A stretch of DNA of 64,000 bases. It comes from Terrimonas ginsenosidimutans (GTDB lineage: Bacteria > Bacteroidota > Bacteroidia > Chitinophagales > Chitinophagaceae). A model generated the notes under the pieces. It did not search any database and was not told the origin of the DNA. It was given only the letters and a program-made list of their open reading frames with translations. Location of the stretch: positions 62,001 through 126,000 of the forward strand of contig NZ_JAKLTR010000016.1 of NCBI RefSeq assembly GCF_022012415.1, given 5' to 3'. The position numbers were made by a program, and so were the translations under genes. Every line of letters starts with the position of its first letter. Within the stretch, counting starts at the first letter, position 1. Positions 10,697 through 57,344 of this stretch are shown here, one piece after another.

Positions 10697-10732
10697 TGGT
10701 GTGTGTTTTTGACAGTTTTTTAAATAATCTTA

Positions 10733-10851: not shown

Positions 10852-10870
10852 CAAAGCAATCTTAAACAGC

Positions 10871-35995: not shown

Positions 35996-39119
<3,124 letters not shown>

Positions 39120-39121
<2 letters not shown>

Positions 39122-39211: not shown

Positions 39212-39303
39212 TCCGTAACATCGAAAGCCCGAATATTTTAATTTTTTGCTGATTTATTGGTTTTTATACGTCTGATTCCCTTATTTTTGCTGCCCGTTAT
39301 CAA

Positions 39304-39385
39304 GCCCAGATGGCGAAATTGGTAGACGCACTGTCTTCAGGTGGCAGCGCCGCGAGGTGTGCTGGTTCGAATCCAGTTCTGGGCA
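39304..39385 (+). tRNA. tRNA-Leu (anticodon CAG)
   Basis: Acceptor stem GCCCAGA pairs with TCTGGGC. The D-arm has AAATTGGTAGACGC. The anticodon stem CTGTC pairs with GGCAG around TTCAGGT, giving CAG. A variable arm of about ten bases precedes the T-arm CTGGTTCGAATCCAG. No CCA is encoded. The last part is duplicated at 56922-56942, marking it as the target of a mobile element. Confidence 0.93.
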
Positions 39386-39388
39386 CAT
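39368..39388 (+). repeat. Left attachment core (tRNA 3' end)
   Basis: A 21-bp core starting CGAATCCAGTTCTGGGC and running through ACAT is repeated exactly at 56922-56942. It includes the T-loop and acceptor 3' strand of tRNA-Leu, the classic site for a tyrosine integrase. The tRNA is left whole here. Confidence 0.85.
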
Positions 39389-39490
39389 CGGTTCCCTTGT
39401 AGAAGTTTGAAATTCAAATTTTTGCAAGGGATTTTTGTTTTCTGCCAGGTGTTTATCCCTCCGTTTATTTCCGCGTCTGTCCGATGTTTT

Positions 39491-39522
39491 TGGCGGACAA
39501 TTGGCGGACAGTTTGGCGGACA
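39491..39522 (+). repeat. Three TGGCGGACA direct repeats (candidate integrase arm sites)
   Basis: Copies begin at 39491, 39502 and 39514 (11- and 12-base spacing), 100-135 bases from the attachment core. Related copies lie at 56870 and 56881, and at 57046 (degenerate) and 57057. The spacing and placement on both sides of the core fit arm-type binding sites. Confidence 0.5.
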
Positions 39523-39528
39523 TTTTTA

Positions 39529-39801
39529 ATGATAAAAACGGCATTAATGGCAATCATTTTAACGGCAGACCTGAGCCGGAAAGGTGACAAAAATTGGTAC
39601 ACTTTCGAATGGGGGTAAAGGGCAAGGGCAGCGGAGAGCCTCGGGAATTTTCACCTACACGAAACCAAAAGATCAAATCCAGAAACAACACAATGCTGAG
39701 GCCAAGCGGCTTCTTGATGTAAAATTGTTGGAGATCACGCTCGACCATCAATCAGTGGGTAGTTCGTTTACCCCGAGCCAGAGAATTAAGGAGAACTTCC
39801 T
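39529..39801 (+). pseudogene. Truncated, frameshifted tyrosine integrase N-terminus, copy 1
   Basis: Translation starts as MIKTALMAIILTADLSRKGD and reads to WYTFEWG, then hits a stop. In the next frame the protein continues GKGQGQRRASGIFTYTKPKD and on to SQRIKENFL. One extra G in the G5 run at 39611 would explain the shift. The joined text matches the arm-binding N-terminus of Bacteroidota phage-type integrases, which go on for about 300 more residues. Here the catalytic part is gone after 39801. Copy 2 at 57072-57344 differs at only 4 of 273 positions, carries the same G5 shift and ends at the same base. Confidence 0.8.
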
Positions 39802-40465
39802 GACACCGAGTTGTTCGTTTGGTCTTTGGTATCGTAGGTATAAGAATACTTCAATCCGTATTCGGATACTTCCAGTTTCGCGTCTTTCATTACATACCTG
39901 GTTTTGTTCTTATCGTGGAAATAGAGGCTGCCGATATTTTTCCTGAGGATTTTATTCAACGCCGCGATCAGTTCGAGGAGGTCCGGATGAACTCTTTGCA
40001 TGGCGACTTCCGGCTTCTCTATTTCATATTTTCGGGAAGGATAACCTTGGTTTTGATCGTGTCCACTTTTTCATAGACGGAATATTTTCCATCCTTATTG
40101 AATTCATCTTTGATCGCAAGTTTGCCTTGCTTTTCCAGCAGATCCATCTTGATGATCACGGATTGTTCTTCGATCCGGTCTACGTACTTGAAAGTTTCCG
40201 CTTCTATTTTCCCTTTACGGATGATGATCGGCTGCTCTTCACCGGGTGTGTATTCATAAACCAATTCTTTTGAAGGAATGAACACGAGGCGAAGGCCCGT
40301 CAGGTATTCGGAGATTTCGGTCTTCTTGTTACCCTCCAGATAATATTTCAGTTCCTATTCATGGGTGACGAGAAGCTTTCTCGTATTTGAGGCGGAATAG
40401 TTCTGCGTCAATGAAAAAAGGGTGAGCAGGGTAATGGTTAGAATGGACAGGACGGTTTTGTACAT
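39786..40465 (-). pseudogene. Secreted protein of unknown function, broken by a stop and a frameshift
   Basis: Reading from the ATG at 40465 gives a signal peptide (MYKTVLSILTITLLTLFSL), then an in-frame TAG at 40355-40357. The same frame continues ELKYYLEGNKKTEISEYLTG and on to VILPENMK. A second frame then carries KYEIEKPEVAMQRVHPDLLEL to the end at 39786. Joined, it would give about 225 residues of an exported protein with no known motif. Its last codons fall inside the integrase stub repeat, so the 3' end may have been replaced there. Confidence 0.6.
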
Positions 40466-40714
40466 AAGGGGTGATATTAGAAGCAGGCGACAGTTCCCTT
40501 GCTACGCATCGCGGGGAGCCTGGACGTATTCAACGGAGATTTTAAAAGTTATTATCTGAAAGCTAGGAGATGCACATTTAAATTCCCATCGAAGGGCTAA
40601 AGTGTTTGTTCCGGCCGGGCGACCTAACATTTGCTTCAGGTTTAAGTTCTGGCATGCATTAAGGTCGATAGTTGTATTAAATTAGCCCGTCCAGGACAAC
40701 CTGATGAATGCTGA

Positions 40715-41311
40715 TCAATCGACCTCGATACTGCGCAGCATATTTTCTGTTTGTTTCAGCATCCTGTTGTACGATCTTAATGTCCATACCGAGAAAGCTA
40801 GGAAGAAGACAACAGCGAGGGGGAAGATCAGAGACCAGAAATAAGGGATTCGCGATATATCTTTTCCCCTGATTGAAGCGAGTACAGGCAGTATGATCAG
40901 CATTAGGAAAAAGCCCAGGGAGATATTCAGCTTTTGTAATCGTTGAAACCTCATCTTGCGGGTACTAAAATCTTTAATGGTATCCAGGTAGCTATTGGAG
41001 GATATATTTATGTTTTTAACCGCACATAATGACCGGATAGAAATAAAGGGTAAAACCAAAAGCAACGCGATCGCAATGAAGGCAAGGAATTGGATGACTT
41101 CTGTTTGGATCGTTGCGACGTTTGCCAACAGATATGCTGCGGCAAGGTAACAGATGATACTGCCGATATATTCGAATTGCCCGATCTTGTTTATTTTAGA
41201 ACGGTAGTTGTTTTGTGTCATCTGATCAATTAAGTGTGTAGTTAATCTGCTTTGTCTGCCGGGTGTATTGTTCATTTCATTCCAGGCATTTTTCATTTCT
41301 TCCAGTTCCAT
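40715..41311 (-). CDS. Four-helix membrane protein next to a sigma factor
   Basis: The 198-residue protein starts MELEEMKNAWNEMNN, typical of small Bacteroidota membrane proteins encoded after sigma factors. Hydrophobic segments lie near residues 48-65, 72-89, 132-148 and 158-178. Its ATG lies two bases after the sigma stop, so the two are coupled. Such proteins may act as membrane-bound regulators of the partner sigma factor, but no zinc motif of the usual anti-sigma type is present. The role is therefore inferred from position only. Confidence 0.65.
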   Translation of the reverse strand: MELEEMKNAWNEMNNTPGRQSRLTTHLIDQMTQNNYRSKINKIGQFEYIGSIICYLAAAYLLANVATIQTEVIQFLAFIAIALLLVLPFISIRSLCAVKNINISSNSYLDTIKDFSTRKMRFQRLQKLNISLGFFLMLIILPVLASIRGKDISRIPYFWSLIFPLAVVFFLAFSVWTLRSYNRMLKQTENMLRSIEVD

Positions 41312-41313
41312 AT

Positions 41314-41812
41314 TTATAGTGTTTTAGTAATTTGCTGCTTGAGTTTTTCTTTGATGCGGCCGATCCTTGTTCCGACGTTGGTAGAACTGATGCCGGTAAT
41401 CTCTGCAATCTCCTGGTGGGTTTTGCCTTCGAGATAAAGGAGGATGATGCCTTTATCCAGCAGGTTCAGGATCCGCAGGCTGTCGTATAGTATCCTGACG
41501 CTTTGTTCCGCAGCCTTGTCTTTTTCGTCTGGCAGATGGTAAGCGCTGGTTTCAATGGGTATCGTGTTTACCTTTTTTGAGGCTTTTCAGATTATAGATA
41601 GCGGTATTCATTGCGACCCTGTACATCCAGGTGCTTATTTTCGATTGATCATTGAACGAGCCGAATGATTTCCATAGCTGGAAGACGATTTCCTGGAAAA
41701 GGTCCTCTCTATCCTGCGGGCTATTAGTATAAAGTGATGCTACCTTGATGATCAGCCCTTCGTTTTGTGTAATTACTTTTGTAAAATGTGTTTTTTTATC
41801 CATCTGGTTCAA
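41314..41812 (-). pseudogene. ECF-type sigma-70 factor with one frameshift
   Basis: The first frame (41812 to 41552) gives region 2: LIIKVASLYTNSPQDREDLFQEIVFQLWKSF and ISTWMYRVAMNTAIYNLKSLKKGK. The rest of the protein, region 4 (LNLLDKGIILLYLEGKTHQEIAEITGISSTNVGTRI), is in the +1 frame and stops at 41314-41316. The shift lies at the A6 run near 41570-41580. Joined length is about 165 residues, normal for an ECF factor. A sequencing error or real inactivation are both possible; a +1 slip at the A-run cannot be excluded. Confidence 0.8.
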
Positions 41813-42466
41813 ACTTCATATAATTAGTGTACAGTGTTGGGAAAAAATCACAAACAGGCAAAACTATTTTGTAGACGAAGAGTGGTTGCGGTTGACATGT
41901 GCGCATGATACTCTGCCGGGAATCTAAGGCCACTCAAAACGTATGAATGTAAGGTAGCTCTTGGGGAAAATTAGCAAGCAGCCCACATTCCTAACCATCA
42001 TCCGGGAAATTCCGGATATTGCTAATGTTGAAGCTTTGTTTTACCGGAATTGCACTGCTGCATCGTCTTTATTATTTTAGCCTCTCAATCTGCCCCATGA
42101 AAGGCCTAATCCCTTTGTAACTTATTCCGTGCTTTATTGCACCAACTTTGCGCAAATTGACAAAGCAATCTTGGAATACGGAGAGGTGATCGTAGAAGCC
42201 TATGCGAATGAGCGCTAATGGCTTGGGGTGGATTTATTGTAGAAAAGGGAGTGCATTGTCGATGAACCAGTTCCAGAATGATTCAATAGATGTATCTGTT
42301 GGCCCAATTAATATTTGAATGATAAAAGAGTTTTCTTGAGCTAGGGTGTCGTTCAGTGATGTTGGCCTCTTCACTAGACAAGTAACAAGTGCCCATACAA
42401 ATATACTAAACTACTTAGTATATTTTCGGGACGATTATCCGTTACTTCTCCGAATTACTACTCGAT
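41813..42466. other. Noncoding, remnant-rich gap
   Basis: No convincing gene is seen in 650 bases. Short frames are broken and match nothing recognised. The stretch has mixed composition typical of decayed island DNA. Confidence 0.5.
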
Positions 42467-42604
42467 ATGGCTTGGCCGCAGCGATTTGACTATTTGATTC
42501 AGACCGGACTCAATAACTGGGTGCGGGATAGTCAACAGCTAAGTGCTGCTCTGACGAAGCCAAATTCTTTTCTGAGATACCGGGAGGGGATATCATGGAA
42601 GTAG
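42467..42604 (+). CDS. Possible 45-residue ORF overlapping the next gene
   Basis: An ATG frame reads MAWPQRFDYLIQTGLNNWV and ends SWK with its stop at 42602-42604, overlapping the next ATG at 42595 in another frame. It may be the N-terminal part of one protein broken by a frameshift, with the following ORF as the C-terminal part. No family is recognised. Confidence 0.3.
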   Translation: MAWPQRFDYLIQTGLNNWVRDSQQLSAALTKPNSFLRYREGISWK

Positions 42605-42828
42605 ACCTGAATGGTTTGACACCAGTCTATCTACTCAAGCATATCGCGTCTGATCCCGCAAAGTATGCGGATGTCCTGTTCCTTTCGCTGGAAAGAGCGA
42701 TGTTCCGTACACTGTCTTTTATTGGGGTCGAAGATTACCTGTTTTCGTTTCTGTTCAAATTCCAGGGAGAATTGATCAAACGACAAGTGAATTACTATTT
42801 TTTATCGAAGACAAGAGCGATGAAGTAA
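42595..42828 (+). CDS. Small hypothetical protein
   Basis: The 77-residue product (MEVDLNGLTPVYLLKHI at the start) has no family I recognise. It is mostly helical, with acidic and aromatic residues and a basic end (KTRAMK). The overlap with the ORF just upstream suggests translational coupling or a split gene. It lies 80 bases before a membrane protein gene on the same strand. Confidence 0.4.
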   Translation: MEVDLNGLTPVYLLKHIASDPAKYADVLFLSLERAMFRTLSFIGVEDYLFSFLFKFQGELIKRQVNYYFLSKTRAMK

Positions 42829-42910
42829 TGAATCTGCCCTCCCCATTTCCTTTGCTTTCGAACAGGTTCCTTGCCGATTTCCGTGTAACTTACTTAGCAA
42901 ACCAACTGCT

Positions 42911-43708
42911 ATGGGTAAGCAACGGTCAATACCAGCTTTGTTTTCCAGTGTCGCGCCTTACCTGGGAGCAGGTCTACTCCTGATGGGGATGGTGCGACTC
43001 TGTATTTTTTACGGCTACTTTGGCGTCAATATCGTCCAGTTCATTGACCTGAGTGAGATCGTTACTTCGCTACTCGATATTGGCGTCTGGTTTATCATTG
43101 TGCTGCTCAGTGTACTGGTAGGTTACTTAACGCTGATCGTTTTTACGAATTCCCTCCGGAAGAAACGTGCCATCCTTCCCCGTATCCGGAGTCATGATAC
43201 GGTCAAGCGGCGTTATAGTTTTTGCTTTTTGTTCGTCGGGTTTATTGTGCTCGGATTAGTGGATGGCCGTCGCTCTCTCGAGATCCTTTTTCTATGTCTC
43301 GTGCTAGTTTGTCTCGCCCTCGTCGCGGGAACATATGAAATCTGGCTGATGAGTTTGAAGAAACCTTTCACGGCCAACAGTTACCTGTTTTATGTGCTCC
43401 TTTTTGGTAGTTGTGTCGCGATCGTGGTGACCAGTGCCATGCATTCGATCGATGCGGTGCGAAACCAATATCGTTATTACGGTACGGCAATTGAACTGGA
43501 TAATAACCGGCGATTTGTTTCTGATAGCACGCAATACTTTATCGGTAAGAATAGTCATTATGTGTTCCTCTACCATTCAGACACGCATGTTACGGAAGTG
43601 GTACCCATGAGTGCCGTGAAGCATTTGATACTAGCGGTAGACACGTTGACGCCGAATGTGTGTCCGGAGGTGAAGGGCGATGCAATTGCATTGCTTGAGC
43701 ATAGGTGA
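42911..43708 (+). CDS. Multi-pass membrane protein, function unknown
   Basis: The 265-residue product has about five hydrophobic segments: near residues 12-30, 50-78, 98-113, 119-137 and 156-173, separated by basic loops (SLRKKRAILPRIRSHD). The last 90 residues are soluble, with RRFVSDSTQYFIGKNSHYVF and a threonine-valine strand pattern. I do not recognise a family. It lies on the island between the sigma remnant and another membrane protein. Basic loops suggest that the N-terminal part is inside the inner membrane; topology is inferred only. Confidence 0.6.
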   Translation: MGKQRSIPALFSSVAPYLGAGLLLMGMVRLCIFYGYFGVNIVQFIDLSEIVTSLLDIGVWFIIVLLSVLVGYLTLIVFTNSLRKKRAILPRIRSHDTVKRRYSFCFLFVGFIVLGLVDGRRSLEILFLCLVLVCLALVAGTYEIWLMSLKKPFTANSYLFYVLLFGSCVAIVVTSAMHSIDAVRNQYRYYGTAIELDNNRRFVSDSTQYFIGKNSHYVFLYHSDTHVTEVVPMSAVKHLILAVDTLTPNVCPEVKGDAIALLEHR

Positions 43709-43848
43709 TCTTATCTTGTTTACTTTACTGAAGTTGCCGAGGGTGATTTTGGGCTCAGGTCAGGTCTTTGCAGCGTTAGTGGAACCACTTTAGCGTTACT
43801 TGAATCAAGATATTCAGTATATTGTTTGGTACCAAGACAAACGATTCG

Positions 43849-45090: not shown

Positions 45091-48000
45091 ATGCGTTCCA
45101 CTAACATCCCCCTTATCCGAGGTTTCTGGTACAGAAACTTTCCGTTTATTTTTTTGTTTTTTGCCTTCCTGACTATCCGATCCGATGCACACACACAGAT
45201 GCGAAAGCTTTTTTCTGATAATGATGTGCCTCAAAATGAGGTGATGAAGTTCAGCTTTTATAGCCGGTCCGAAGGATATGTAGCGTTCCGAGACTGGGTG
45301 GGATACACCGTTGATTCCGGCAGGACTTATATTAGAAAGCCAGTGACACTCAACAACGTAAACTACAATTCTCATCTTGTTAACCTCACGTTTGGTTTTG
45401 GAATAATGGGTGTCAAGGCATTTGACCAGCAAAATATTATTCTGTATGGGCATTACGGATTTGAGCCGGCTATCTTGAGGTCCTACAATGGGGGAAATAC
45501 CTTTACCCTGGTTTATTATCTTGGCGTCAACCCAAGTGAGTTCCTGAATGGTGTTCCAGATATGGTTTTCCCGGAAAATAATCTGGTAGGATATGCCATT
45601 GAAGCAAACAATATTTTGAAGACGACTGATGGAGGGGTCAATTGGGTAACCCATAAGGCATACCCCGGTAAATATTTAACCAGGATAGATGCGCTGGATA
45701 ATAATAATGTTTATGCGTACGGCACATATGGAAATTTGACGAACCTGGTAAAAACCACCAATGGCGGAGCTAGTTGGCAGGATATTACAATGCCTTCCAT
45801 CCCCGGCAGCCATAAGACCATCCTTTCAGCGTTCTTCCGGACCGCGTCGAAAGGATGGTTGAGTTATTCAAACACCGATAACCAAGAGTATTTTTTCACC
45901 ACCAGCAATGGTGGCGCGTCGTGGACATTATTGAACGATCCCGTAGCCACTTCTTTTGGTTGCAGCGAAATGAAGTTCTTCGACGATAATAACGGGTTCG
46001 CACTGTCGGGAATGAATGAGGTTTACCGGACGTCGAATGGCGGTGTTATATGGGAGCCTTTACCGCGGGATAATCGGTTTGAATACCTTAACTATTCTCA
46101 CAATGATCTTGCATTCTGGAATGACCAGCAAATATGGGCCGGAGGTGGCGGAGGCCTTGTTGAGATAAGTACCAATGGCGGAGGCTCTCCGTTGCCACGT
46201 GCTTATTTTAAAATCGATACAGCGGGGCTGAAGGCTACGCAAAAGGTGAAACTGCTGAATTATTCGCGCCAGAGCTATTCTTACCGTTGGCTGGTGAATG
46301 GCGTGGAAGTAAGTACCGCGTATAATGCCGAATATACGCATGATATTTATCACGTATTCGATACAATTCAACTGATCGCCAGCAACGGAACATTGATTGA
46401 TACCACTCTACGATACCAACCGTTTCATCCGCCGTTGATCGTATCGTCGTTTACACCTACGAGAGCAGTGTCGGGGCAGATCGTTACTATCGAAGGAATC
46501 AATCTCAGCGGTGTAACATCCGTTTCGTTTGGAGGAGTGCCTGCTGCCAGTTTTACTATTGTTTCTTCTACACGGATCACCGCCAGAGTGGGAGGAGGCG
46601 CTTCCGGAGACGTGGTGGTGGGTCGTTCCAATAGCTGGAGTTCTCTTCCCGGCTTTACGTTCGTAGCGCCACCGGATGTTACCTCTTTCAGCCCTGTATC
46701 TGCCACTACCGGCGAACTGATCAGTATTTATGGCTCCCATTTTCAAGAGGTGATCAGGGTTAGGATGGGTGCTATTCCTGTTATATCTTTCACGGTCGTT
46801 TCTCCAACGTTGATCACTGCCATTGCCCCTTCCGGTCGTTCCGGCAGTGTATATGTAGAAACAGCAGGGGGAAAAGATTCTCTTAACGGCTTTATTGCTT
46901 TGCCTTCGATCACGTCTTTCAACCCTGCGCAAGGTACTCAGGGCTCCCGGCTGAAAATCAAGGGTACGTCTTTGTTGGACATTACGGCAGTGACGGTTGG
47001 CGGTTCTCCGGCGAGCTCTTTTACGATACATTCACCGGACAGCATCACGGCAATTGTGAGTGGAGGCAGTAGTGGGGAGGTTGTGATTTCGAAACCGGGA
47101 GCCAATGCCTCTTTGCCCGGATTCGTTTGGAGCCCGGCGCCTGTCATCACTTCTTTTGCGCCCGCTTCGGGTCCGGTGGGTACAGAGGTTGTCATCAGTG
47201 GAACTGGCTTTAATGCGGCTGCTGGGAGCAATACCGTTTATTTCGGTGCAGTCAAAGCCACTGTTGTTTCCGGCAGCGAAACTTCCTTAACGGTTAAAGT
47301 TCCGGTCGGAGCCACGTTTGATGCGATCAGCGTTACCAGCAATTTTCTTATTGCTTATTCTGCCAAACCGTTCTTAGTCAGTTTTGCCGACGGAGGAAGT
47401 ATTTCTTCCAACAGCTTTTCGGAGGCTTTCAGTTCTAATGCCGGAACTAATTCTCCCAGGCATATTGAAAAGGGCGATCTGGACGGAGATGGTAAAACAG
47501 ATCTGATAATTACCTCTTCGGGAGGCACGTCGTCCCAACCGGGAGCCTATATTTATCGCAATACAAGTAGTACTACCACAACTTCTTTTGCGGCTCCTAT
47601 CCATCTGCCTGGAGGAGGGACAAAAACCGGCATTGGAGACCTTGATGGCGATGGGAAGCTAGACCTGGTGATATTTTCTGATAACACTGTAAAGATATAT
47701 CTGAATGCTTCTTCTCCAGGAAACATAAGCTTTATCCCAGACCAGGTATTGGTTGCAGGCTACACTTTTCTCAGCATCGCAATAAATGATGTGGATGGAG
47801 ACGGAAAAGCGGATATTGTCTGTGTTAGTTCTTCCTCTGCGATCATTTTCAGGAACCAGAGCGACCCAGGAATGACCTTTTTTGCCGCACCGGTAGCCTT
47901 TTATACTGATGACTCCATAAACACGTTGGTGTCAGATCTGGATGGAGATAACAAGCCTGAAATCATCTCGAGCGGATCTAGAAATCAGTTAAGCGTGCTA

Positions 48001-51000
48001 AAAAACACCTCAGTAAAAGGAGTGATTTCTTTTGCCTACCCTGTCAGGTTCGAGGGGGTCGAGGACTCTCATATTGCGATTGGGGATTTGAATGGAGATG
48101 ACCGGGCTGAAATTGTTATGTCCGATAATGAAGGACGCAAAGTGACTGTTTTTAAAAATACTGCTGCGACAGGAGATATCCGTTTTGTCCTTGTTGCCAA
48201 TATTGAAGTGAATTCTCCCGGACAGGTGGCGCTCGCAGATCTTGATGGAGATGGCAAACTTGATATCGCCGTTTCTAACGTCATTAATCATTTTACTGTG
48301 CTCAAGAACTTGAGCAGTGGTGACAACATTTCTTTCTCGCCGGGGATTAGCTTCAAACAAGGATCGTTTGGTTCAGGAAACCCAATAGCCCTGAGTGATA
48401 TTAATGGTGATGGTAAAGATGATGTCGTGGTGGCAAGCGCAATTGGGAAAACGATTGCCGTATACAGGAATAACGTACTGCCTGAACCGTTTGTTGAATC
48501 ATTTACGCCTTCGATCGGAGTGGCGGGTACTGTTGTGACGATCACCGGAAGCAACTTCACTGGCGTAACTGATGTACATTTCGGTGTTACTCCTGCCGCG
48601 TCCTTTACCGTCAATCACGCGGGAAGTATTACAGCAGTTGTAGGTAACGGAAGTACCGGGGAAATTTCTGTGAAGAACAGTTTCGGTACCGGCTTTTCAT
48701 TTGACTCCTATCTGTTTAAAACCCCGGCACCGCTGATCACCTCGTTTTTTCCTGAACAGGCATCTGTCAATGCAACAGTGACAATTACCGGAGAGAATTT
48801 TGATGGGTCGACGATGAATACCCACGTTTATTTTGGCGGTAGCAGAGCGGAACTGGTGTCTGCCACTTCAACAAGTCTGGTGGTCAAAGTGCCGTTCGGC
48901 TCAATGCACGAGCCGATCAGGGTTACCAGCAATGGCCGTGTTGCCTATAGCAAAAGGGCATTTACTACCACCTTCAATGGCGGTGGTGATTTTAATGCTG
49001 CCTCTTTTGCTCCGCCATACGTTCGGTCAGGCGGGGGGTACTGGCCATTTTTTCCCGATATAGACGGTGATGGTAAACCAGATATCGTCACTTCATCAAG
49101 CGCCAACAGTATCAGTATTTTGCAAAACGCCAGCATATCGGGTAGTTTTTTATTCAAAATGAGCCGGAGTTTTCCCATTGGACAGTCCCCCGGGAGTTTT
49201 GCTGCTGATGATCTGGATGGAGATGGTAAGCCAGATCTTGCCATGATATCCGAAAACAGAACACTCACCTTGCTGCGCAATAATAGTTCTCCCGGCGTAG
49301 TAGATTTTGCTGCTAGAAAAGAATTTGTGTTGGGAGCAGGTGAGCCCAGTGTCAGTACTGTGCGCATCAATGATATGGATGGAGATGGCAAGGCTGATGT
49401 GATCCTGGGTCATTTATCCGGCGGAACGTTTTCCATTTACCGCGGAACCGGTAGCCCGGGTGATATCTCTGTGGATGCCAGGAAAGATTTTTCCCTGAAT
49501 GCAACTGCTGCCGTTTTTTATATTGCAGATTTTGATGGAGATGGCAAGCCTGATGTTCTTGGGCTTTCGGGTAATTCGATTGGTGTTTTTGCTTATCGTA
49601 ATACCAGCACACCCGGTAACCTGTCTTTTGTGGGGAGAACGACTGTAACTGCCGTTCCCGGAGGAGTTGCTGTAGCTGATTTTGACAATGACGGAAAGCC
49701 TGATATTGCCTTTATACCACATACAGGTGAGGGACTGACGATTTACCGCAACACATCTGTAAATGGTGCGATAACTTTTGATGCCGGCACTCCTTTTCCG
49801 AGTAAAGGCACTTACACATCTATGGTGCCCAATGACCTGAACGGTGACGGGAAAGTAGACCTTGCCGTTAATTATGCAGGCAGGGAAGACCCCTATTCCG
49901 GACGTATGGTGACGGATGTTTTCCGCAATACCAGTTCGCCGGGTAGCATCTCCTTTGCTTCGCGGGTAACTTATCCGTCAACCGAGGGCTCCGGTAGTAG
50001 TGCGGCGTCAGTGGATTTTGATGGAGATGGCCGGGCAGATATCGTAAGTAGTTTATGGGCTGGGTTAAGTATCATGCGTAATACGAGCGGCGGACAGGGC
50101 CCAACGATCTCAGCGGTATCGCCACTGATCGCTCCTGCCGGAGCAACAGTTTTGATCAGCGGTAGTAATCTGACCGGCGCAACATCGGTTAGTTTCGGGG
50201 GTGTTGCGGCCAAATCTTTCACGGTTGAATCTTCTGAAAAGATCGTGGCTGTTATTGGTGAAGGAGCTTCCGGTATGGTGGTCGTGCAAATGCCAACCGG
50301 TACGGCAAGCATCAGCGGGTTTATCTTAGGTAAGGCACCCCTTATCACATCGGTTTCTCCCGGAGTAGTACCTGCCGGAGCTGAGATCGTGATCGAGGGT
50401 ATGAATTTCACGGGGACCTCTTCTATCGCCATAGGTGGAACACCGGTCTCTTCTTTTATCATTATCTCGCCTTCATTGATCAAGGCAGTGCCGGGCAGTG
50501 GTTCGTCTGGCGAGGTACAAGTGACAACGCCAGAGGGTACCGTTTCTTTTGGTAATGTTTCCACAGCGCTTGCCCCGACGATCACTTCCTTTTCGCCTGT
50601 CAGCGTTACGGGAACTGGAACAGTCACTATCAATGGCTCCGGCTTTACCGGTACAACCGTAGTTAAACTTGGCGGCTATCCGGTAACGTTTACCATTGTT
50701 TCTCCCACTGTCATTACAGCGCAGCAGGATAGATATATGAGTTCAGGACTTGTCAGTGTCATAACGCCTGGAGGGACGGCTGAAAAGGACGGATTAGTTT
50801 TTTCGACCGGCCCTGATGTTACCTCTTTCTTTCCTCAGGCTGCTACGAAGGGTATGAAAGTAACGATAACCGGAACGGGACTGCAGCATGTTACCGAAGT
50901 TAAGTTTGGTGGTACTCCCGCCAGTTCTTTTACGATAATTTCTACCACAACGATAGAAGCAATTGTGGGGTCGGGCGCAACCGGCGATCTATGGGTCAGG

Positions 51001-53466
51001 ACTCCTTCAGGAACAGGCGGGCGGCCGGGATTTACCTTTATCCAGGAGGGCCAACCTGTTATTGGTAGTATAGCACCTGCGATCGCAAGCACAGGAACGA
51101 CGGTCACCATCACCGGTTATAATTTTACGGGTGCCAGTGCGGTTAGCTTTGGCGGCATAAGTGCTAGTTCGTTCAACGTAGTTTCGCGTGATACTATAAC
51201 GGCGGTCGTGGCAGGTGGTGCTTCCGGTGTGATCACTATTTCTACTCCAACGGGAACTGCGGAGTTTGGAGGATTTGCCTATACCACCGCTCCGCTGATT
51301 ACATCCTTTACGCCTGTATCTGCGCAGCCTGGTTCTTCGATCACGATTTTTGGCAGAAACTTCAGCAACAACCCTTCTTCCAATGTGGTGTACTTCGGGG
51401 ATGTAAAAGCCACGGTAACGAAAGCCACTACCAGTTCGCTGATGGTCACTGTTCCGAAAAGTGCTTCCTATAGCGCACTGACAGTAGCGGTGGGAGGACT
51501 GACAGGGTATTCTCCTCATGCGTTCCTGCCGGTCTTTGCTGGTGCGGGAAAACTGAAGCCATCGAATTTTGCTATCCATATGGACTCGTCTTCCGCTAAT
51601 GGACCCAATGCTGTTGCGCTGACGGACATCGATGGAGATGGGAAACCAGATATCACGGTCGCCAACCTGTCGTCGTCACTACAGGCAGGCATCTACACTT
51701 TCCGAAATGCCGGAGCTCCTGGGAGAATGGGTTTTGCCACTCACAATGAAATTGGAACCCACACAGCCCCTATTTATCTGAAGTATGCCGATGTGAACGG
51801 GGATACGAAACCTGATCTGACCTTTCCGGGTTCAGCCGATATAAACGGAGTGGGTGTTCACCCCAATACCAGTTCGCCCGGCACGATTAGTTTTGCTTCA
51901 CCGCTTAAGATGACAGCGGGTCTTAGTAACTCCCATGTTTGCGCAGGAGATTTTGACGGTGATGGGAAGATTGACGTTGGTATTGTGGTAGCCAACACAC
52001 ATGCGGTATCGATGTTCCGTAGTACCGGGAGTGGAGGTACGACCTCTTTTGCGCCTGTTGTACAGGTGTCCGCAGGTATCTATCCGGATGCGGTCGCAGC
52101 AGAGGACATGGATAATGACGGTAAGCTGGATCTGGTCATCGTCGGCCTGAACTATATACGTGTAATGCGAAATACCAGCACCCCCGGCAATTTGAGCTTT
52201 ACAAGTTGGGAAGTGCGCCTGCCTGGTTATAATAACCATCTGGCTACCGGCGATCTTGATGGTGATGGGAAATCAGATGTCGTGCTGATCAATAGAAGCA
52301 AGCCTCAGGGAATGATCATGAAAAACAGGAGCATGCCGGGCCATATAAAGCTTGAACCGGACGGCTATTTCAATACCAAAACATCCCCGGAGATTGTTGC
52401 CCTCGCTGACATTGACGGAAACGCGCAGCCTGATATACTGGTAGCTTCATCGGGGAATGAATTATCTGTTCTACCCAATATCAGCACTGGCAATTCGATC
52501 CGCTTTGATTCGGTTGTGCACATTCCTCTGTCTGCTCCCGCTTCTTATGTGGCTGTCGGCGACATGGACGGGGATGGAAGGCCCGACGTGGTGCTAACCA
52601 GTAAAGCTGCTAACAGCGTATCGATCCTGCGTAATCAGCAGGATACTGTTTCCTTGCTTGAGGTGCCGGCGTGTGCGAACACATCCAAAAGCCTGACATC
52701 CGGTGTTACCGGCAACTCGTATCAGTGGCAGCGAAATACGGGCGTTGGCTTTGCCAGCCTGACCGATGACAATGAATTCTCCGGAAGTCAGACTGCAACG
52801 CTTACTTTAGCGGCGATCCCTGCACATTGGGATAAGCATCTTTTCAGGTGTATGGTTAATGGTATCCAGTCGAGCCAATGGTTCGGTTTAGCGCTGAACC
52901 CTGTTTTGGATGCTGCCATTACGATCAGTTCACCTACTCTGATTGTTAACCCGGGCGCAAGTATACTGGTCTCATCCGCTGTGACCAATACAGGGACAAC
53001 CACAGGGTTTCAGTGGCAGGATAGTACGGCGACGCATAGCTGGCAGAATATCAGCGGTGCGGTGCTTTCATCGCTCAATTATTCGCCGGGGGCAACCGGT
53101 GTAAGACTGCGATGTCTGCTGACGGGGGAGAGTGCCTGCAGCAACATCACGCTTCCCAGCAACGTGCTCCAGTTTACGCTCAATATTCCGACAAGTATCA
53201 ATCCTGAGCCAGCCGCGGATCATGGTATCCGGTTGTATCCCAATCCAGTTGCGCAGTTGTTAAGGATCGATACGCTGAAGTTGGCAGACAGATGGGAATC
53301 CTTGCAGATCGTGAGCGCTGATGGCAAGCCTGTGCTGCAATGGCGGACCATTGTCAACCAGATGAGTGTGTCGATTGATGTCAGCCAGTTTCCTGCGGGG
53401 CTTTATTTTGTGATCATGAAGAAAAAGCCGGAGAAGACGGTTTATCTGAAGTTTGTGAAAAGATAG
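45091..53466 (+). CDS. Giant T9SS-exported surface protein with 12 IPT/TIG domains and three FG-GAP propellers
   Basis: The 2791-residue protein has a signal peptide (FPFIFLFFAFLTIRSDA) and an N-terminal propeller with ILKTTDGGVNWVTHKAY-type blades to about residue 380. Twelve IPT/TIG domains start near residue 448 (pattern PLITSFTPVSAQPGSSITIFG). Three FG-GAP propellers, each with exactly seven DxDxDGxxD calcium loops, lie near residues 790-1115, 1320-1650 and 2175-2500; each follows an IPT domain of the VYFG type. An Ig-like part and a type A T9SS tail (IRLYPNPVAQ to YLKFVKR) end it. It is probably a surface adhesin or cargo binder. Confidence 0.93.
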   Translation: MRSTNIPLIRGFWYRNFPFIFLFFAFLTIRSDAHTQMRKLFSDNDVPQNEVMKFSFYSRSEGYVAFRDWVGYTVDSGRTYIRKPVTLNNVNYNSHLVNLTFGFGIMGVKAFDQQNIILYGHYGFEPAILRSYNGGNTFTLVYYLGVNPSEFLNGVPDMVFPENNLVGYAIEANNILKTTDGGVNWVTHKAYPGKYLTRIDALDNNNVYAYGTYGNLTNLVKTTNGGASWQDITMPSIPGSHKTILSAFFRTASKGWLSYSNTDNQEYFFTTSNGGASWTLLNDPVATSFGCSEMKFFDDNNGFALSGMNEVYRTSNGGVIWEPLPRDNRFEYLNYSHNDLAFWNDQQIWAGGGGGLVEISTNGGGSPLPRAYFKIDTAGLKATQKVKLLNYSRQSYSYRWLVNGVEVSTAYNAEYTHDIYHVFDTIQLIASNGTLIDTTLRYQPFHPPLIVSSFTPTRAVSGQIVTIEGINLSGVTSVSFGGVPAASFTIVSSTRITARVGGGASGDVVVGRSNSWSSLPGFTFVAPPDVTSFSPVSATTGELISIYGSHFQEVIRVRMGAIPVISFTVVSPTLITAIAPSGRSGSVYVETAGGKDSLNGFIALPSITSFNPAQGTQGSRLKIKGTSLLDITAVTVGGSPASSFTIHSPDSITAIVSGGSSGEVVISKPGANASLPGFVWSPAPVITSFAPASGPVGTEVVISGTGFNAAAGSNTVYFGAVKATVVSGSETSLTVKVPVGATFDAISVTSNFLIAYSAKPFLVSFADGGSISSNSFSEAFSSNAGTNSPRHIEKGDLDGDGKTDLIITSSGGTSSQPGAYIYRNTSSTTTTSFAAPIHLPGGGTKTGIGDLDGDGKLDLVIFSDNTVKIYLNASSPGNISFIPDQVLVAGYTFLSIAINDVDGDGKADIVCVSSSSAIIFRNQSDPGMTFFAAPVAFYTDDSINTLVSDLDGDNKPEIISSGSRNQLSVLKNTSVKGVISFAYPVRFEGVEDSHIAIGDLNGDDRAEIVMSDNEGRKVTVFKNTAATGDIRFVLVANIEVNSPGQVALADLDGDGKLDIAVSNVINHFTVLKNLSSGDNISFSPGISFKQGSFGSGNPIALSDINGDGKDDVVVASAIGKTIAVYRNNVLPEPFVESFTPSIGVAGTVVTITGSNFTGVTDVHFGVTPAASFTVNHAGSITAVVGNGSTGEISVKNSFGTGFSFDSYLFKTPAPLITSFFPEQASVNATVTITGENFDGSTMNTHVYFGGSRAELVSATSTSLVVKVPFGSMHEPIRVTSNGRVAYSKRAFTTTFNGGGDFNAASFAPPYVRSGGGYWPFFPDIDGDGKPDIVTSSSANSISILQNASISGSFLFKMSRSFPIGQSPGSFAADDLDGDGKPDLAMISENRTLTLLRNNSSPGVVDFAARKEFVLGAGEPSVSTVRINDMDGDGKADVILGHLSGGTFSIYRGTGSPGDISVDARKDFSLNATAAVFYIADFDGDGKPDVLGLSGNSIGVFAYRNTSTPGNLSFVGRTTVTAVPGGVAVADFDNDGKPDIAFIPHTGEGLTIYRNTSVNGAITFDAGTPFPSKGTYTSMVPNDLNGDGKVDLAVNYAGREDPYSGRMVTDVFRNTSSPGSISFASRVTYPSTEGSGSSAASVDFDGDGRADIVSSLWAGLSIMRNTSGGQGPTISAVSPLIAPAGATVLISGSNLTGATSVSFGGVAAKSFTVESSEKIVAVIGEGASGMVVVQMPTGTASISGFILGKAPLITSVSPGVVPAGAEIVIEGMNFTGTSSIAIGGTPVSSFIIISPSLIKAVPGSGSSGEVQVTTPEGTVSFGNVSTALAPTITSFSPVSVTGTGTVTINGSGFTGTTVVKLGGYPVTFTIVSPTVITAQQDRYMSSGLVSVITPGGTAEKDGLVFSTGPDVTSFFPQAATKGMKVTITGTGLQHVTEVKFGGTPASSFTIISTTTIEAIVGSGATGDLWVRTPSGTGGRPGFTFIQEGQPVIGSIAPAIASTGTTVTITGYNFTGASAVSFGGISASSFNVVSRDTITAVVAGGASGVITISTPTGTAEFGGFAYTTAPLITSFTPVSAQPGSSITIFGRNFSNNPSSNVVYFGDVKATVTKATTSSLMVTVPKSASYSALTVAVGGLTGYSPHAFLPVFAGAGKLKPSNFAIHMDSSSANGPNAVALTDIDGDGKPDITVANLSSSLQAGIYTFRNAGAPGRMGFATHNEIGTHTAPIYLKYADVNGDTKPDLTFPGSADINGVGVHPNTSSPGTISFASPLKMTAGLSNSHVCAGDFDGDGKIDVGIVVANTHAVSMFRSTGSGGTTSFAPVVQVSAGIYPDAVAAEDMDNDGKLDLVIVGLNYIRVMRNTSTPGNLSFTSWEVRLPGYNNHLATGDLDGDGKSDVVLINRSKPQGMIMKNRSMPGHIKLEPDGYFNTKTSPEIVALADIDGNAQPDILVASSGNELSVLPNISTGNSIRFDSVVHIPLSAPASYVAVGDMDGDGRPDVVLTSKAANSVSILRNQQDTVSLLEVPACANTSKSLTSGVTGNSYQWQRNTGVGFASLTDDNEFSGSQTATLTLAAIPAHWDKHLFRCMVNGIQSSQWFGLALNPVLDAAITISSPTLIVNPGASILVSSAVTNTGTTTGFQWQDSTATHSWQNISGAVLSSLNYSPGATGVRLRCLLTGESACSNITLPSNVLQFTLNIPTSINPEPAADHGIRLYPNPVAQLLRIDTLKLADRWESLQIVSADGKPVLQWRTIVNQMSVSIDVSQFPAGLYFVIMKKKPEKTVYLKFVKR

Positions 53467-53513
53467 AAAGGGAGTGTAAATAATCGAGTTGTCTCCAAAC
53501 TTTTTTAGTTTAG

Positions 53514-53552
53514 CAGTCGCGTCCGAGATGTCTCGGACGCGACTGTTTTTTT
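53514..53552 (+). terminator. Strong intrinsic terminator after the giant surface protein
   Basis: A 15-bp perfect stem (CAGTCGCGTCCGAGA/TCTCGGACGCGACTG) with a 2-base TG loop is followed by seven T residues, 48 bases after the stop. Confidence 0.92.
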
Positions 53553-53762
53553 GGGCATTGTGAACGGGGACCAACGGTTTTTTTGTCTGGCTAATTGGCT
53601 GAGAGAAGGCGATGAAGGTTACAGCTGTTTTTTGTCCGTTTTATTCGGTAGCCTAAAGCGAGCCCGTATATCCCGCCAAGATACTAAAAGACTGTATGCG
53701 CCAGCCCTGGACGGCAATGAACCTTCTTTACAGTGAGAAGCCCGTCCATGTTTTCGGATGTT

Positions 53763-53996
53763 TCATTTTCCCGCCCTCATTAACCCGAAGGTGGTCGTGC
53801 TATTGTTCAGCATGAGTATCCTACCTTGTTTAGATGCTACAAACCATGCATTATATTTTTCGGTTTTACCGTCGGATCGCTTAGTAAGCGATACTGACCA
53901 GTCCGTCGTGATGACTGATCCTTTGAACTGCTGTTTATAGGATTGCACATTCCCTGTGGTGCCGTAGCCTCCGTTATTGAAAAGATTGGGATGCTG
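53763..53996 (-). pseudogene. C-terminal fragment of an unknown protein
   Basis: The open frame has no real start: it opens after a stop near 53997 and reads NLFNNGGYGTTGNVQSYKQQ to the end at 53763 (STTTFGLMRAGK). The text looks like the last 75 residues of a larger, probably exported or effector-type protein. No family is assigned. It lies convergent to the toxin remnants that follow and is one of several truncated genes in this part of the island. Confidence 0.45.
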
Positions 53997-54016
53997 TTAA
54001 AAGTGGGGTTAAATCA

Positions 54017-54608
54017 ATGTGGAATTATCATTCATCTACCCCTTTTAAGCAGCAGATTAGTGAATATATAACTCAGGCAAAAAGCTGGGACAATTGGGCG
54101 CAAGCCGTAGAGCTTTCTGTTCTACTTTTTGCTCCCGGAAAGGTAAATACAGCTTTGAAGGTAGAAAATGGAGCAGGGGGGGCATTAAGGCGGCAGGTGC
54201 TATCGAAGCGGAAACGATTGCTGCCGCTGGATTAAGAGATCAGTATATTGCTGCAGTTTCTGGATTAAAGGCTATCGGAGACAATCTGCTAAAGTTTGGA
54301 ATTGAAGAAAAATATGTTGCTGAGGCGCTGAGTATAACAAGGAGGAAACTGGGAGAGGTTTTCAAAGATGCAACTCCGGCAGATCTGCGTGAGTGGATAT
54401 ATAAGTTTAATGAAATAGATATCAAGACAAATTAGGGCCAACTTATGAGTTCCTTAAGAACGTGCAAAAGAAAAGTGATGCATCTATAATAGAATCATCT
54501 TCCAGGCCTTTAGGTACAAAGGAACAGTTGGGAGCAGCTCTTTACAAAGAGTTCGGTGAGGCTGTTCGACCTGTACTCGAGAAATACGAAATGATATCCA
54601 AAAAATGA
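54017..54608 (+). pseudogene. Decayed polymorphic toxin C-terminus
   Basis: Three frames join to one text: QISEYITQAKSWDNWAQAVE with a small hydrophobic helix, then after the G7 run near 54178 KAAGAIEAETIAAAGLRDQY to EWIYKFNEIDI, then after a second break near 54425 DKLGPTYEFLKNVQKKSDAS to EKYEMISKK. The GA-rich helix and GPTYEFLKN motif resemble C-terminal toxin modules of Rhs-type polymorphic toxins. No N-terminal delivery domain is present. The stop TGA overlaps the ATG of the next gene (ATGA), a typical toxin-immunity junction. Confidence 0.6.
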
Positions 54609-55045
54609 AAATAAGAATTTTACAAAAAAGCAGAGCCTCGAGTCAGGCATTGCTTGATCTATCTACAGGGAAGGTTGAGTTTTATATTCTTTCAGTTGAT
54701 GATAATTCATTGTCAGAATTCCCTGTCAAAGGAGTTTATGAGATAATCAACAATCATTTGGTAATATTATATAAGCCTGAAGTTGATAAAGTATTGTTAC
54801 GTGTTGACGTCGACGAATTTGTGATTAACGATAAGTTTTCTTTAAAGTATCACATAGAAGGGAATAGGGGAATTCTGATAATTAGAGACCATTCTAAAGT
54901 GATTTCTTTGGATATTTTTCTTGGGAACTTATTTCCTGTGAGCACTTTTCATTATTCCGAGGATGAGGAGGATGTGAATTTTTTACTCTGGTTGTCAAAT
55001 GTTCTGAACTCAAAAGAGCGCTTTAAAATTTTATTAGACACATAG
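54605..55045 (+). CDS. Putative immunity protein for the upstream toxin remnant
   Basis: The 146-residue acidic protein (MKIRILQKSRASSQALLDLS) has an alpha/beta look, with VDVDEFVINDKFSLKYHIEGNRGIL in the centre and a C-terminal SEDEEDVNFLLWLSNVL. It has no signal. The start codon overlaps the toxin stop by one base step (ATGA), and the frame is intact while the toxin is broken, as expected for a retained immunity gene. No named immunity family is claimed; the call rests on position, size and acidity. Confidence 0.55.
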   Translation: MKIRILQKSRASSQALLDLSTGKVEFYILSVDDNSLSEFPVKGVYEIINNHLVILYKPEVDKVLLRVDVDEFVINDKFSLKYHIEGNRGILIIRDHSKVISLDIFLGNLFPVSTFHYSEDEEDVNFLLWLSNVLNSKERFKILLDT

Positions 55046-55292
55046 AAAGAAGTTACATCAGCCTGAGGCACTTTCTGCGCAAAGAAATGTATTGAAAGCG
55101 ACTGCCAGATTGATGATGAAAGATAGAAAAGCTGCTGCAGCTCTTGATAAGAGTGATCCTATTAGACCTTTTCAGTATTACGTTGATAAGTATACACAAA
55201 AAGGGTATAGTGGAGAAAACTTGTGGTAGAAAATTATAACGGGGTCTGCAAAACCTAACGCAGAAGTAAACAAGAAGTTTAATATTAACTAG
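55038..55292 (+). pseudogene. Second toxin C-terminus remnant with internal stop
   Basis: The frame reads KKLHQPEALSAQRNVLKATA, then MMKDRKAAAALDKSDPIRPF, then YVDKYTQKGYSGENLW, and meets TAG at 55227-55229. It continues KIITGSAKPNAEVNKKFNIN to a stop at 55290-55292. There is no start codon of its own. Position directly before another small gene repeats the toxin-immunity order. Alignment to known toxins would be needed to name a domain. Confidence 0.5.
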
Positions 55293-55297
55293 GTAAT

Positions 55298-55516
55298 ATG
55301 GCTGGTCAACAGGTTTTAGAAGAGCTTAAGAATATAGAAATAAAATGGCATAGAAACAAAAGCCATCATCGTTTTTATTACAGCGAATTAGCCGGGGAAC
55401 TTCTATTGTTACGATTGAATGATTTTCCAGATGAGCCTCTGTTAACCCTTATTAAAGGACAGAATATTTGGGATATCGATGATGTTCCTGAGAAGTGGAA
55501 CATTCCCTTTAGGTAG
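55298..55516 (+). CDS. Putative second immunity protein
   Basis: The 72-residue protein (MAGQQVLEELKNIEIKWHRN) starts six bases after the second toxin remnant and ends in WDIDDVPEKWNIPF. It is acidic with several aromatic residues, and its frame is intact. The order toxin fragment then small acidic gene is repeated from 54017-55045. Family is not recognised; an orphan immunity role is inferred from the arrangement. Confidence 0.5.
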   Translation: MAGQQVLEELKNIEIKWHRNKSHHRFYYSELAGELLLLRLNDFPDEPLLTLIKGQNIWDIDDVPEKWNIPFR

Positions 55517-55537
55517 ACGTAGTCTATTTCGAATAGC

Positions 55538-55566
55538 AAAAGCCGCTGAGAACATCAGCGGCTTTT
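55538..55566. terminator. Bidirectional terminator
   Basis: AAAAGCCGCTGA pairs with TCAGCGGCTTTT around a 5-base loop. It lies between the second immunity gene (plus) and the XRE gene (minus), serving both directions. Confidence 0.85.
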
Positions 55567-55567
55567 A

Positions 55568-55897
55568 TCATTTATAAGCGATCCTTGTTTTGGCGTGTTG
55601 GATAAGTCCGTCCAGGGAGTACATGATATGCGACTTATCTTCTTCGGGGAGCTTCTGAATGGCGATCACTTTCTCCAGGATATTTTTATCAAGTTCTACA
55701 TCTGTATTGCCGACCAGGTAATCCAGCGATACGCCGAGAGCGTTCGCGATCTTGGCCGCTACTTCGACGGAAGGGGCGGCTTCTTCGCGTTCGTACCGTC
55801 CCAGTACATTGGCGTGGATGCCGACCTTATCGGCGAGTTCGGTCTGGGGCATTTTATGTTCTTTGCGGATGCGGTTGATCTTTGTTCCTACACTCAT
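55568..55897 (-). CDS. XRE-family transcription regulator
   Basis: The ATG at 55897 (MSVGTKINRIRKEHKMPQTE) is preferred over an upstream extension with unlikely sequence. The 109-residue protein has a clear lambda-Cro/XRE helix-turn-helix (RIRKEHKMPQTELADKVGIHANVLGRYEREEA, residues 9-40) and a short helical C-terminus. It is divergent from the SymE-like gene, with a palindromic operator candidate between the starts. It may control itself and that gene. Confidence 0.9.
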   Translation of the reverse strand: MSVGTKINRIRKEHKMPQTELADKVGIHANVLGRYEREEAAPSVEVAAKIANALGVSLDYLVGNTDVELDKNILEKVIAIQKLPEEDKSHIMYSLDGLIQHAKTRIAYK

Positions 55898-55994
55898 AAT
55901 CGTTGTATTTAAGGCGGAATGGTTCCGTAAAAAAAAATATAGCCATCGGAAGTGTAGTAAAAATCTTGAAAAGTTTGTTTGAAACAACTAAAGT

Positions 55995-56008
55995 GGTGCT
56001 TTAGCACC
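55995..56008. promoter_or_regulatory. Palindromic operator candidate between XRE and SymE genes
   Basis: GGTGCTTTAGCACC is a perfect inverted repeat of 6 bp per side (2-base spacer), flanked by outer AACAACT and AGTTGTT. It lies 35 bases before the SymE start and 98 bases before the XRE start. Confidence 0.5.
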
Positions 56009-56042
56009 TGACCAGTTGTTTTTAAATAAAATTTTTGTGGAC

Positions 56043-56246
56043 ATGGAAAAGAGAAAAAGAAGAGCAAAACTGCATGGCCGGTACCGCCCCTGCGACAACA
56101 GCACGACGGGTTATAAAGAAGTTCCCTGGCTGAACGTAAGCGGCCAGTGGCTGGCAAAGGCCGGCTTTGGCATCGGCGATGCGGTGGAGATTATCGTGGA
56201 AGAGAATGTGCTCACCATTAAAAACGCGGGCCATGTAGATCGCTGA
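56043..56246 (+). CDS. SymE-like type I toxin family protein
   Basis: I use the ATG at 56043 (MEKRKRRAKLHGRYRPCDNS), giving 67 residues. The block VPWLNVSGQWLAKAGFGIGDAVEIIVEENVLTI matches SymE-type proteins, which have a small swapped-hairpin (AbrB-like) fold. In E. coli SymE is an SOS-linked toxin controlled by an antisense RNA. In Bacteroidota, such genes commonly sit on mobile elements beside primase-like genes, as here. No antisense RNA can be shown from sequence alone. Confidence 0.75.
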   Translation: MEKRKRRAKLHGRYRPCDNSTTGYKEVPWLNVSGQWLAKAGFGIGDAVEIIVEENVLTIKNAGHVDR

Positions 56247-56812
56247 GATCAAACATAAGTTATCGCTGGCGCAGGTGCTGCAGCATTACGGATTAAAGAC
56301 GGACTAGCATCACCGCTTGTATTGTTCGTTCTATGCGGACAAAACGCCGAGTTGCCAAGTGTGTTATAAAACGAGACCTGTTACTGCTTTTCTGCTAACT
56401 GTGCTACGCATACGAAGGCCATGGACGTGATCGATTTTATTTTGCATAAAGAAGGTTGCAGCAAACATGAAGCACTGGTAAAAGCACGGAACTGAACGGT
56501 CATTATGAAGGCAAAGTAAAACATCATCAACCGTCAGCAACTGCACCTGTTGCAGCACCAGCAAAACCATCACAGCTATCACAGCGCGTGAACAGGTGCT
56601 GCAGAACATCTTCACGTATTTTACCAATGCGGTGAGCAACAGCAAGCCGCCGTAGGAATATATTCCATACAGAGGGCTGGAGTATTTACATGTTGATCGG
56701 GATTCGGATAGCGCTGCTAGCGCCCGGCCAGGGTACATGGAGTATTTACAAGCTATCGAACGCGCAAAGTTTAATCCCTTAGTGGAATGTTATGTGTTCA
56801 ATTTTTTTTAGA
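56247..56812 (+). pseudogene. Remnant of CHC2 zinc-finger DNA primase
   Basis: Broken frames give AEIKHKLSLAQVLQHYGLKTD, a stop, then HHRLYCSFYADKTPSCQV and, in another frame, MDVIDFILHKEGCSKHEALVKA. Together these are the CHC2 zinc-finger block of element-borne primases (Cys-His-Cys-Cys pattern partly kept). Later pieces (VLQNIFTYFTNAVSNSKPP and IPYRGLEYLHVD) fit the linker of the same protein. At least four stops or shifts are present, so it cannot be functional. The order SymE then primase fits integrated elements of this group. Confidence 0.65.
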
Positions 56813-56869
56813 TTGCCAGAATCCTAGTTTGTTTATGTAATTTCATTACGTCAAAATCTGCACACACGA

Positions 56870-56889
56870 TGGCGGAAAATTGGCGGACA
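56870..56889 (+). repeat. TGGCGGA repeats before the right attachment core
   Basis: TGGCGGAAA at 56870 and TGGCGGACA at 56881 are 11 bases apart, about 35 bases before the core at 56922. They mirror the copies at 39491-39522 and fit integrase arm sites on the other end of the island. Confidence 0.5.
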
Positions 56890-56921
56890 AACCAAATAAA
56901 GTTTTGGCTTTTAAATACTTA

Positions 56922-56942
56922 CGAATCCAGTTCTGGGCACAT
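56922..56942 (+). repeat. Right attachment core (partial tRNA-Leu 3' end)
   Basis: Exact 21-bp copy of 39368-39388 without the rest of the tRNA. It defines the right boundary of the 17.5-kb island and the left boundary of the next segment. Confidence 0.85.
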
Positions 56943-57071
56943 TAAAGCCTTCGTAAGAATTTGAGTATCAAATTTTTTCGAAGGTTTTCTGTTTCATGCC
57001 CGATGTATATCCACCGTTTATTTCCGCTTCTGCCCGCTGTTTTTTTGGAAGACAATTGGCGGACAGTTTTA

Positions 57072-57344
57072 ATGATGAAAACGGCATTAATGGCAATCAT
57101 TTTAACGGCAGACCTGAACCGGAAAGGTGACAAAAATTGGTACACTTTCGAATGGGGGTAAAGGGCGAGGGCAGCGGAGAGCCTCGGGAATTTTCACCTA
57201 CACCAAACCAAAAGATCAAATCCAGAAACAACACAATGCTGAGGCCAAGCGGCTTCTTGATGTAAAATTGTTGGAGATCACGCTCGACCATCAATCAGTG
57301 GGTAGTTCGTTTACCCCGAGCCAGAGAATTAAGGAGAACTTCCT
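57072..57344 (+). pseudogene. Truncated, frameshifted tyrosine integrase N-terminus, copy 2
   Basis: Starts MMKTALMAIILTADLNRKGD and reads WYTFEWG to a stop, then continues in the next frame as GKGRGQRRASGIFTYTKPKD. It shares 269 of 273 positions with copy 1, including the frame-breaking G5 run (57154-57158). Similarity ends at the same base as copy 1, and different DNA follows. TGGCGGACA sites lie at 57046 (degenerate) and 57057. The DNA between the core and the start is only partly alike in the two copies. Confidence 0.8.

Follow-up and report, generated by a model that had tools for sequence, protein, structure and literature searches.

A probably stranded unit resembling a cis-mobilizable element, and the probable left end of a second element, at a tRNA-Leu(CAG) gene of Terrimonas ginsenosidimutans

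NBU1 of Bacteroides, one of the closest known systems, is mobilizable and, unlike the locus described here, has a working integrase. A further known kind are the cis-mobilizable elements (CIMEs), which are described in a passage of PMC5704250 as retaining the left and right attachment sites (attL and attR) and not the recombination genes. Such elements and their accretion in tandem are familiar above all from streptococci. For tandem arrays of Streptococcus salivarius a passage of PMC7563491 states that the most decayed units are always those farthest from the target gene. Here we analyzed a stretch of 64,000 nucleotides from Terrimonas ginsenosidimutans (the window, corresponding to C8:62001-126000 of the 7.14-Mb draft genome in 64 contigs), in which an island of 17.55 kb follows a tRNA-Leu gene. 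Very probably two elements of the same integrase family were inserted in succession at the 3' end of tRNA-Leu(CAG), and the island, termed element A, is a stranded CIME-like unit next to the remains of element B.

The only tRNA gene that ARAGORN detected in the window is tRNA-Leu(cag). An earlier note on this DNA had claimed that the 21-bp end of this gene recurs at the other end of the island, and both copies of this core are indeed identical. A 19-mer of the core found no match with up to 3 mismatches in 100 shuffled windows, and the 16-mer ATCCAGTTCTGGGCAC, searched with up to 1 mismatch in the whole draft, is present at these two sites only. When up to 2 mismatches were allowed, the 19-mer showed additional genome matches on C7, within a tRNA-Leu(gag) gene, and on C63, in a tRNA-like stretch.

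Both cores are followed by a hairpin (Table 1). On both sides the stem sequences are different between the two hairpins, yet pairing is retained, which suggests that each hairpin was kept working in its own element. Direct repeats are located behind the first core and in front of the second one, and by analogy with lambda-type integrases we regard them as putative arm-type integrase sites. For evaluation of the left repeats, three 8-mers at spacing 11 and 12 were searched within 220 bases after the tRNA and compared with 200 shuffles. The triplet of A scored 8/8 at offset 103 and was equaled by none of the shuffles; the triplet of B scored 4, no better than shuffles. Within 95.3 kb of C8 the left triplet and the right pair were the only close same-strand pairs of the motif. 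Because the triplet is present on the left and the pair on the right at the offsets of an intact 71-kb relative (G184), positions 39387-56942 can be read as a single integrated element that has kept both of its attachment ends. The earlier note's reading of the segment as an island is supported in that it looks like an integrated element between attachment cores, and its ends retain the repeat geometry of intact relatives.

Table 1. Features of elements A and B and of their target (window coordinates)
Feature	Position	Strand	Remarks
tRNA-Leu(cag)	39304..39386	+	integration target, intact
Core of attL of A	39368..39388	+	tRNA 3' end plus 2 bases
Hairpin after core A	39389..39440	+	terminator-like; -23.5 kcal/mol; equaled by 0/200 shuffles
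Presumed arm sites, attL of A	39491..39522	+	three direct repeats TGGCGGACA at 39491, 39502, 39514; spacing 11, 12
Integrase remnant of A	39529..39801	+	N-terminal part only, frame broken
Decayed host-like genes	39802..41871	-	39814-40396 71% and 40708-41871 86% identical to two C1 loci
Truncated sigma-70 region 2 gene	41552-41812	-	within the decayed stretch 39802..41871
Two open reading frames	42911-43708, 43822-44703	+	no Pfam match
2791-aa protein	45091..53466	+	TIG domains, FG-GAP repeats, type 9 secretion sorting tail
RstR-family transcriptional repressor	55568..55987	-	
SymE-like protein	56016..56246	+	
Presumed arm sites, attR of A	56870..56889	+	direct repeats TGGCGGAAA at 56870 and TGGCGGACA at 56881; 50 and 39 bases before core
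Second core	56922..56942	+	attR of A and attL of B
Hairpin after core B	56943..56994	+	-20.2 kcal/mol; equaled by 0/200 shuffles
Repeats of attL of B	57046..57065	+	degenerate at 57046, perfect at 57057, third absent
Integrase remnant of B	57072..57416	+	N-terminal part, three frames

A match to the protein of the integrase stubs was found in 37 of 294 genomes of the family, with this genome included. From the 42 matches in relatives 29 were fetched as loci (L052-L080), and at 23 of these ARAGORN located a tRNA-Leu gene just upstream on the strand of the integrase (anticodon CAG at 8, GAG at 7 and CAA at 8 loci). At the six remaining loci the tRNA-Leu is broken by 8 N in the core (L058, on G001:C2), the tRNA call is odd (L074), or ARAGORN reported no tRNA upstream of the integrase (L057, L064, L070 and L079). 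The repeat triplet could be identified in 16 of the 23 relatives, with at least 6/8 positions, a score that no more than 2 of 200 shuffles equaled, and a distance of 90-103 bases from the tRNA. A scan of 12 relatives for a second core with up to 4 mismatches gave convincing copies at 71.4 kb from the first core in G184, at 46.4 kb in G079 and at about 55.6 kb in G001:C2. Single matches with 4 mismatches in G184 and G001 were treated as chance. In G292 the second core lies 64.1 kb from the first. With a shorter core of 10-16 bases, searched over the initial 20-40 kb in ten relatives, no second copy was detected. In G184 the repeat pair precedes the core by 50 and 39 bases, at the same offsets as at the right end of the island, and by eye it is present at the same offsets in G001 and one base farther in G199.

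The intact tRNA-Leu elements of G184 (71 kb), G079 (46 kb), G001:C2 (about 55.6 kb) and G292 (64 kb) resemble A in the target, in the strand and position of the integrase, in the core and in the hairpin, and those that show the triplet and the pair resemble A in these as well. In contrast to A, they are larger, their integrase is intact (343-373 aa class in G184, G079 and G001) and their repeats are of the TGACAC type and not TGGCGGACA. The element in G184 is of the conjugative type (TraG, DUF4138, ParB) and that in G079 is a prophage (terminase, DnaB). No relatives of the stubs were found in plasmids or in viral contigs. The matches listed in the literature search contain no paper on this integrase family, which is not proof of absence.

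Three relatives show peculiarities of their own. In a scan of genome contigs Niabella defluvii (CP079215.1) was the only one confirmed among the matches listed, and among these it is the closest named relative, with 70% over the stub; its integrase (L124, about 9400-11100) directly follows a tRNA-Leu(cag), and the N-terminal part of this integrase is itself interrupted by a frame break. On G001:C2 the 8-N assembly gap is located at about 494170 (L058, L091), where it interrupts the core at the tRNA-Leu of an element that is intact, as if integrated and excised forms had both been present in the sample. Another integrase of the family lies about 59 kb into the 64-kb tRNA-Leu element of G292 (C23; L145-L148), with no core before it.

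For analysis of the integrase remnants a profile of 365 positions was built from 18 intact relatives and searched on separate reading frames. The remnant of A covers profile positions 4-24 and 16-87 in two frames, and that of B positions 4-24, 16-89 and 88-110 in three frames. The main pieces reached 82-87 bits. Taken alone the 4-24 pieces (6-7 bits, E 0.02-0.03) and the 88-110 piece of B (10 bits, E 0.0018) are weak, and each is positioned in the proper order. In the intact integrase of G001 a SAM-like domain comprises residues 81-170 and the catalytic domain residues 185-344; the catalytic domain is missing in both remnants. The earlier note had described two stubs with 269 of 273 bases in common, and the 4 differences between 39529-39801 and 57072-57344 agree with this. 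Both stubs are real, but that of B does not end at 57344, since in another frame sequence resembling the integrase extends to about 57416. A truncation base common to both stubs, which would have hinted that the parent element already contained a stub, was considered and dropped for this reason. The claim that no functional integrase is left on the island also holds: none of the genome's 7 matches to PF00589, the catalytic domain of tyrosine recombinases, is on C8 (they are on C11, C2, C37, C56 and C62).

The close similarity of the stubs could have another origin. Only a single element may have been inserted, and the second core with its stub would then have arisen by segmental duplication of the piece at the tRNA end, with 39802-56900 as ordinary chromosome. 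The near-identity of the stubs and their common first frame break fit such a duplication, and so do the parts of 39802-41871 that resemble C1 loci. However, from core to start codon the two leaders share only about 65-68% identity (34 of 52 and 49 of 72 alignment columns agree, 11 of the 72 being gaps), the truncation points differ, and a copy of the left end would not have brought along the repeat pair in front of the second core, whose offsets are those seen at attR in G184. In addition, the island DNA was not found in the congener G001, for which 5 of 52 candidates were scored. We consider a single element very unlikely. An artefact of assembly is even less credible and can practically be dismissed. 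It is true that the genome is a draft of 64 contigs and that a relative has 8 N in exactly such a core, but the two copies differ at 46 of 434 alignment columns, have different neighbours and are both located inside one contig of 158,964 bp. Because the leader DNA is far less alike than the stubs, the locus can be put down neither to a simple duplication of recent date nor to a single stretch that entered the assembly twice. Gene conversion or recombination between tandem copies would best explain why the stubs are nearly identical next to leaders that have diverged.

At 56870-57072 the right repeats of A are followed by the core, the hairpin, and the left repeats and integrase remnant of B, so that A and B share one middle attachment site as in a tandem accretion. 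The same order at a junction was observed at one of the 29 loci (G199:C5:12692). In attL of B one repeat is lost and one is degenerate. A third core, which would mark the right end of B, was found neither in the whole genome (16-mer, up to 1 mismatch) nor on C8 up to 157300 with up to 4 mismatches. Since one repeat is lacking and no third core was found, the second stub is, as judged from its sequence, the left end of another, more decayed element. We take the outer attachment site of B to be lost, or else the end of B may lie on a different contig, its core strongly altered. To the right of B (window 63855 to L040 13165) an AbiTii protein, a RecG-type ATPase domain and a DUF5131 protein are encoded, the latter 71% identical to an open reading frame (ORF) beside a tRNA-Leu element in G262; this stretch is maybe more of B.

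We infer the following order of events. The older element B would have been inserted first and then displaced from the tRNA by the insertion of the younger A. Since then the right end of B, one of its repeats and the greater part of its integrase would have disappeared. A would have kept both attachment ends and lost the integrase beyond its N-terminal part, leaving a stranded unit. The arrangement matches one that is already known, with a CIME-like unit placed in a tandem accretion: as in the passages on streptococcal elements in PMC5704250 and PMC7563491, the attachment ends are kept and the recombination genes lost, the tandem abuts the 3' end of a gene such as one for a tRNA, and the most decayed unit is the one farthest from the target. 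Unlike in streptococcal CIMEs, the two units here share a single integrase family, of which neither retains a functional member, and the parent of A may have been an integrative and conjugative element (ICE), an integrative and mobilizable element (IME) or a prophage.

As expected for a CIME, A appears to be flanked by attL and attR with cores, hairpin, left triplet and right pair, it retains its integrase only in pieces, and no conjugation or mobilization module was identified among its scanned ORFs. The working integrase together with transfer or virion genes that characterizes an autonomous ICE, IME or prophage is missing. No transfer or relaxase family matched these ORFs at a meaningful score in a scan that covered mainly ORFs of at least 70 aa; matches below the cut-off were TrbN-like (14.5 bits, cut-off 246) and TrbA-like (38.6, cut-off 96). 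In the decayed part of A the stretch with 86% identity to C1 is a decayed sigma-factor operon. The ORF at 43822-44703 was found in 1 of 294 genomes, namely this one. A CHC2-type primase near 56240-56500, suspected from the translation, is not claimed, as two pieces gave no Pfam match. On the 6.1-kb contig C37 of the same draft (L143) one recombinase gene directly follows another, and a stretch of this contig shares 73% identity with the gene for the repressor of A.

None of the genes left in A is diagnostic of its parent, and its integrase family serves a conjugative-type element and a prophage alike. It is a possibility to be taken seriously, if not the favored one, that A derives from a prophage or phage satellite and not from a conjugative or mobilizable element; in this case the strict name CIME would be wrong. 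The repressor of the RstR family and the use of the same integrase family by the terminase-encoding prophage of G079 are in line with a phage origin. On the other hand, a PHROGs search with ten ORFs (eight of them from A) gave as phage-type matches only the repressor and one weak unknown family, and the integrase family also serves the conjugative-type element G184.

The earlier note had concluded that movement would require either a helper integrase acting in trans or homologous recombination of the two stubs, which agrees with the absence of a detectable catalytic domain from the contig. A may be excised by an incoming integrase able to recognize the same repeats, or through homologous recombination of one stub with the other (289 bp of homology, 98%, with a longest identical run of 140 bp). 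Because the cores are identical, either route would leave the tRNA whole. Integrases suited to the repeats of A may exist, since the element in G028 has GGCGGACA repeats, twice in attL. There is nearly an even chance that A is a frozen remnant past all recombination, and that the arrangement only marks former insertions. A search of the genome with the stub protein (E up to 0.001) returned the two stubs as its only matches, so that no same-family integrase was found, which favors a remnant. Against it speak the identical cores, the canonical geometry of the repeats of A and the 140-bp identical run between the stubs.

An empty target site in relatives had been proposed as a check. In the congener G001 a tRNA-Leu(cag) has a left neighbour matching window 7142-7864 and no adjoining integrase, and a search of 17,059 island bases against 59 genomes (5 first-look candidates scored per genome) gave no match in G001. 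No site that is empty in the strict sense, with both of its flanks, was found, as the genes to the right in G001 are not collinear with C8 up to 157300 and one gene downstream of its tRNA-Leu(cag) has its best match on C4 of our genome.

Several observations weigh against a tandem of two inserted elements. The near-identical stubs beside diverged leader DNA require an extra step such as gene conversion, and a part of A resembles host loci on C1. The triplet is missing in 7 of 23 attL regions (L059, L069, L072, L075, L077, L078 and L080), 9 of 12 relatives showed no convincing second core in the 20-80 kb scanned, and the attR repeat pair is not clear in G079 and G292. The excision of A is a plausible prediction. 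Taken together, the structure described in the earlier note is real and its interpretation was nearly right, with partial support.

Two successive insertions would make the locus a clear case of tRNA island decay, in which the integrase was lost first and the attachment geometry was retained. The conserved triplet and pair provide a simple sequence rule to locate both ends of such elements in this bacterial family, with the integrase lost or not, and point to the integrases that could move a stranded island. It is rather unlikely that A represents a class of integrase-less cargo islands living on a shared tRNA-Leu attachment system. If true, ICEs, prophages and islands of the family would share one layout (core, hairpin, three repeats at 11/12 bp, and two near -50/-39), and a stranded island with intact ends could be mobilized by whichever incoming integrase has the matching repeat specificity.

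Two observations concern the left flank. In G001 about 190 bases separate the tRNA-Leu(cag) from the homologue of 7142-7864, compared with 31 kb here (window 7865-39273), which were either gained here or lost in G001; this stretch includes what we take to be a beta-galactosidase-like gene. Between the last gene and the tRNA an inverted repeat (39117-39212) with 41-nt arms of 95% complementarity is located. Similar stretches occur on C1, C12, C23 and C56, and it looks like an interspersed palindromic repeat.

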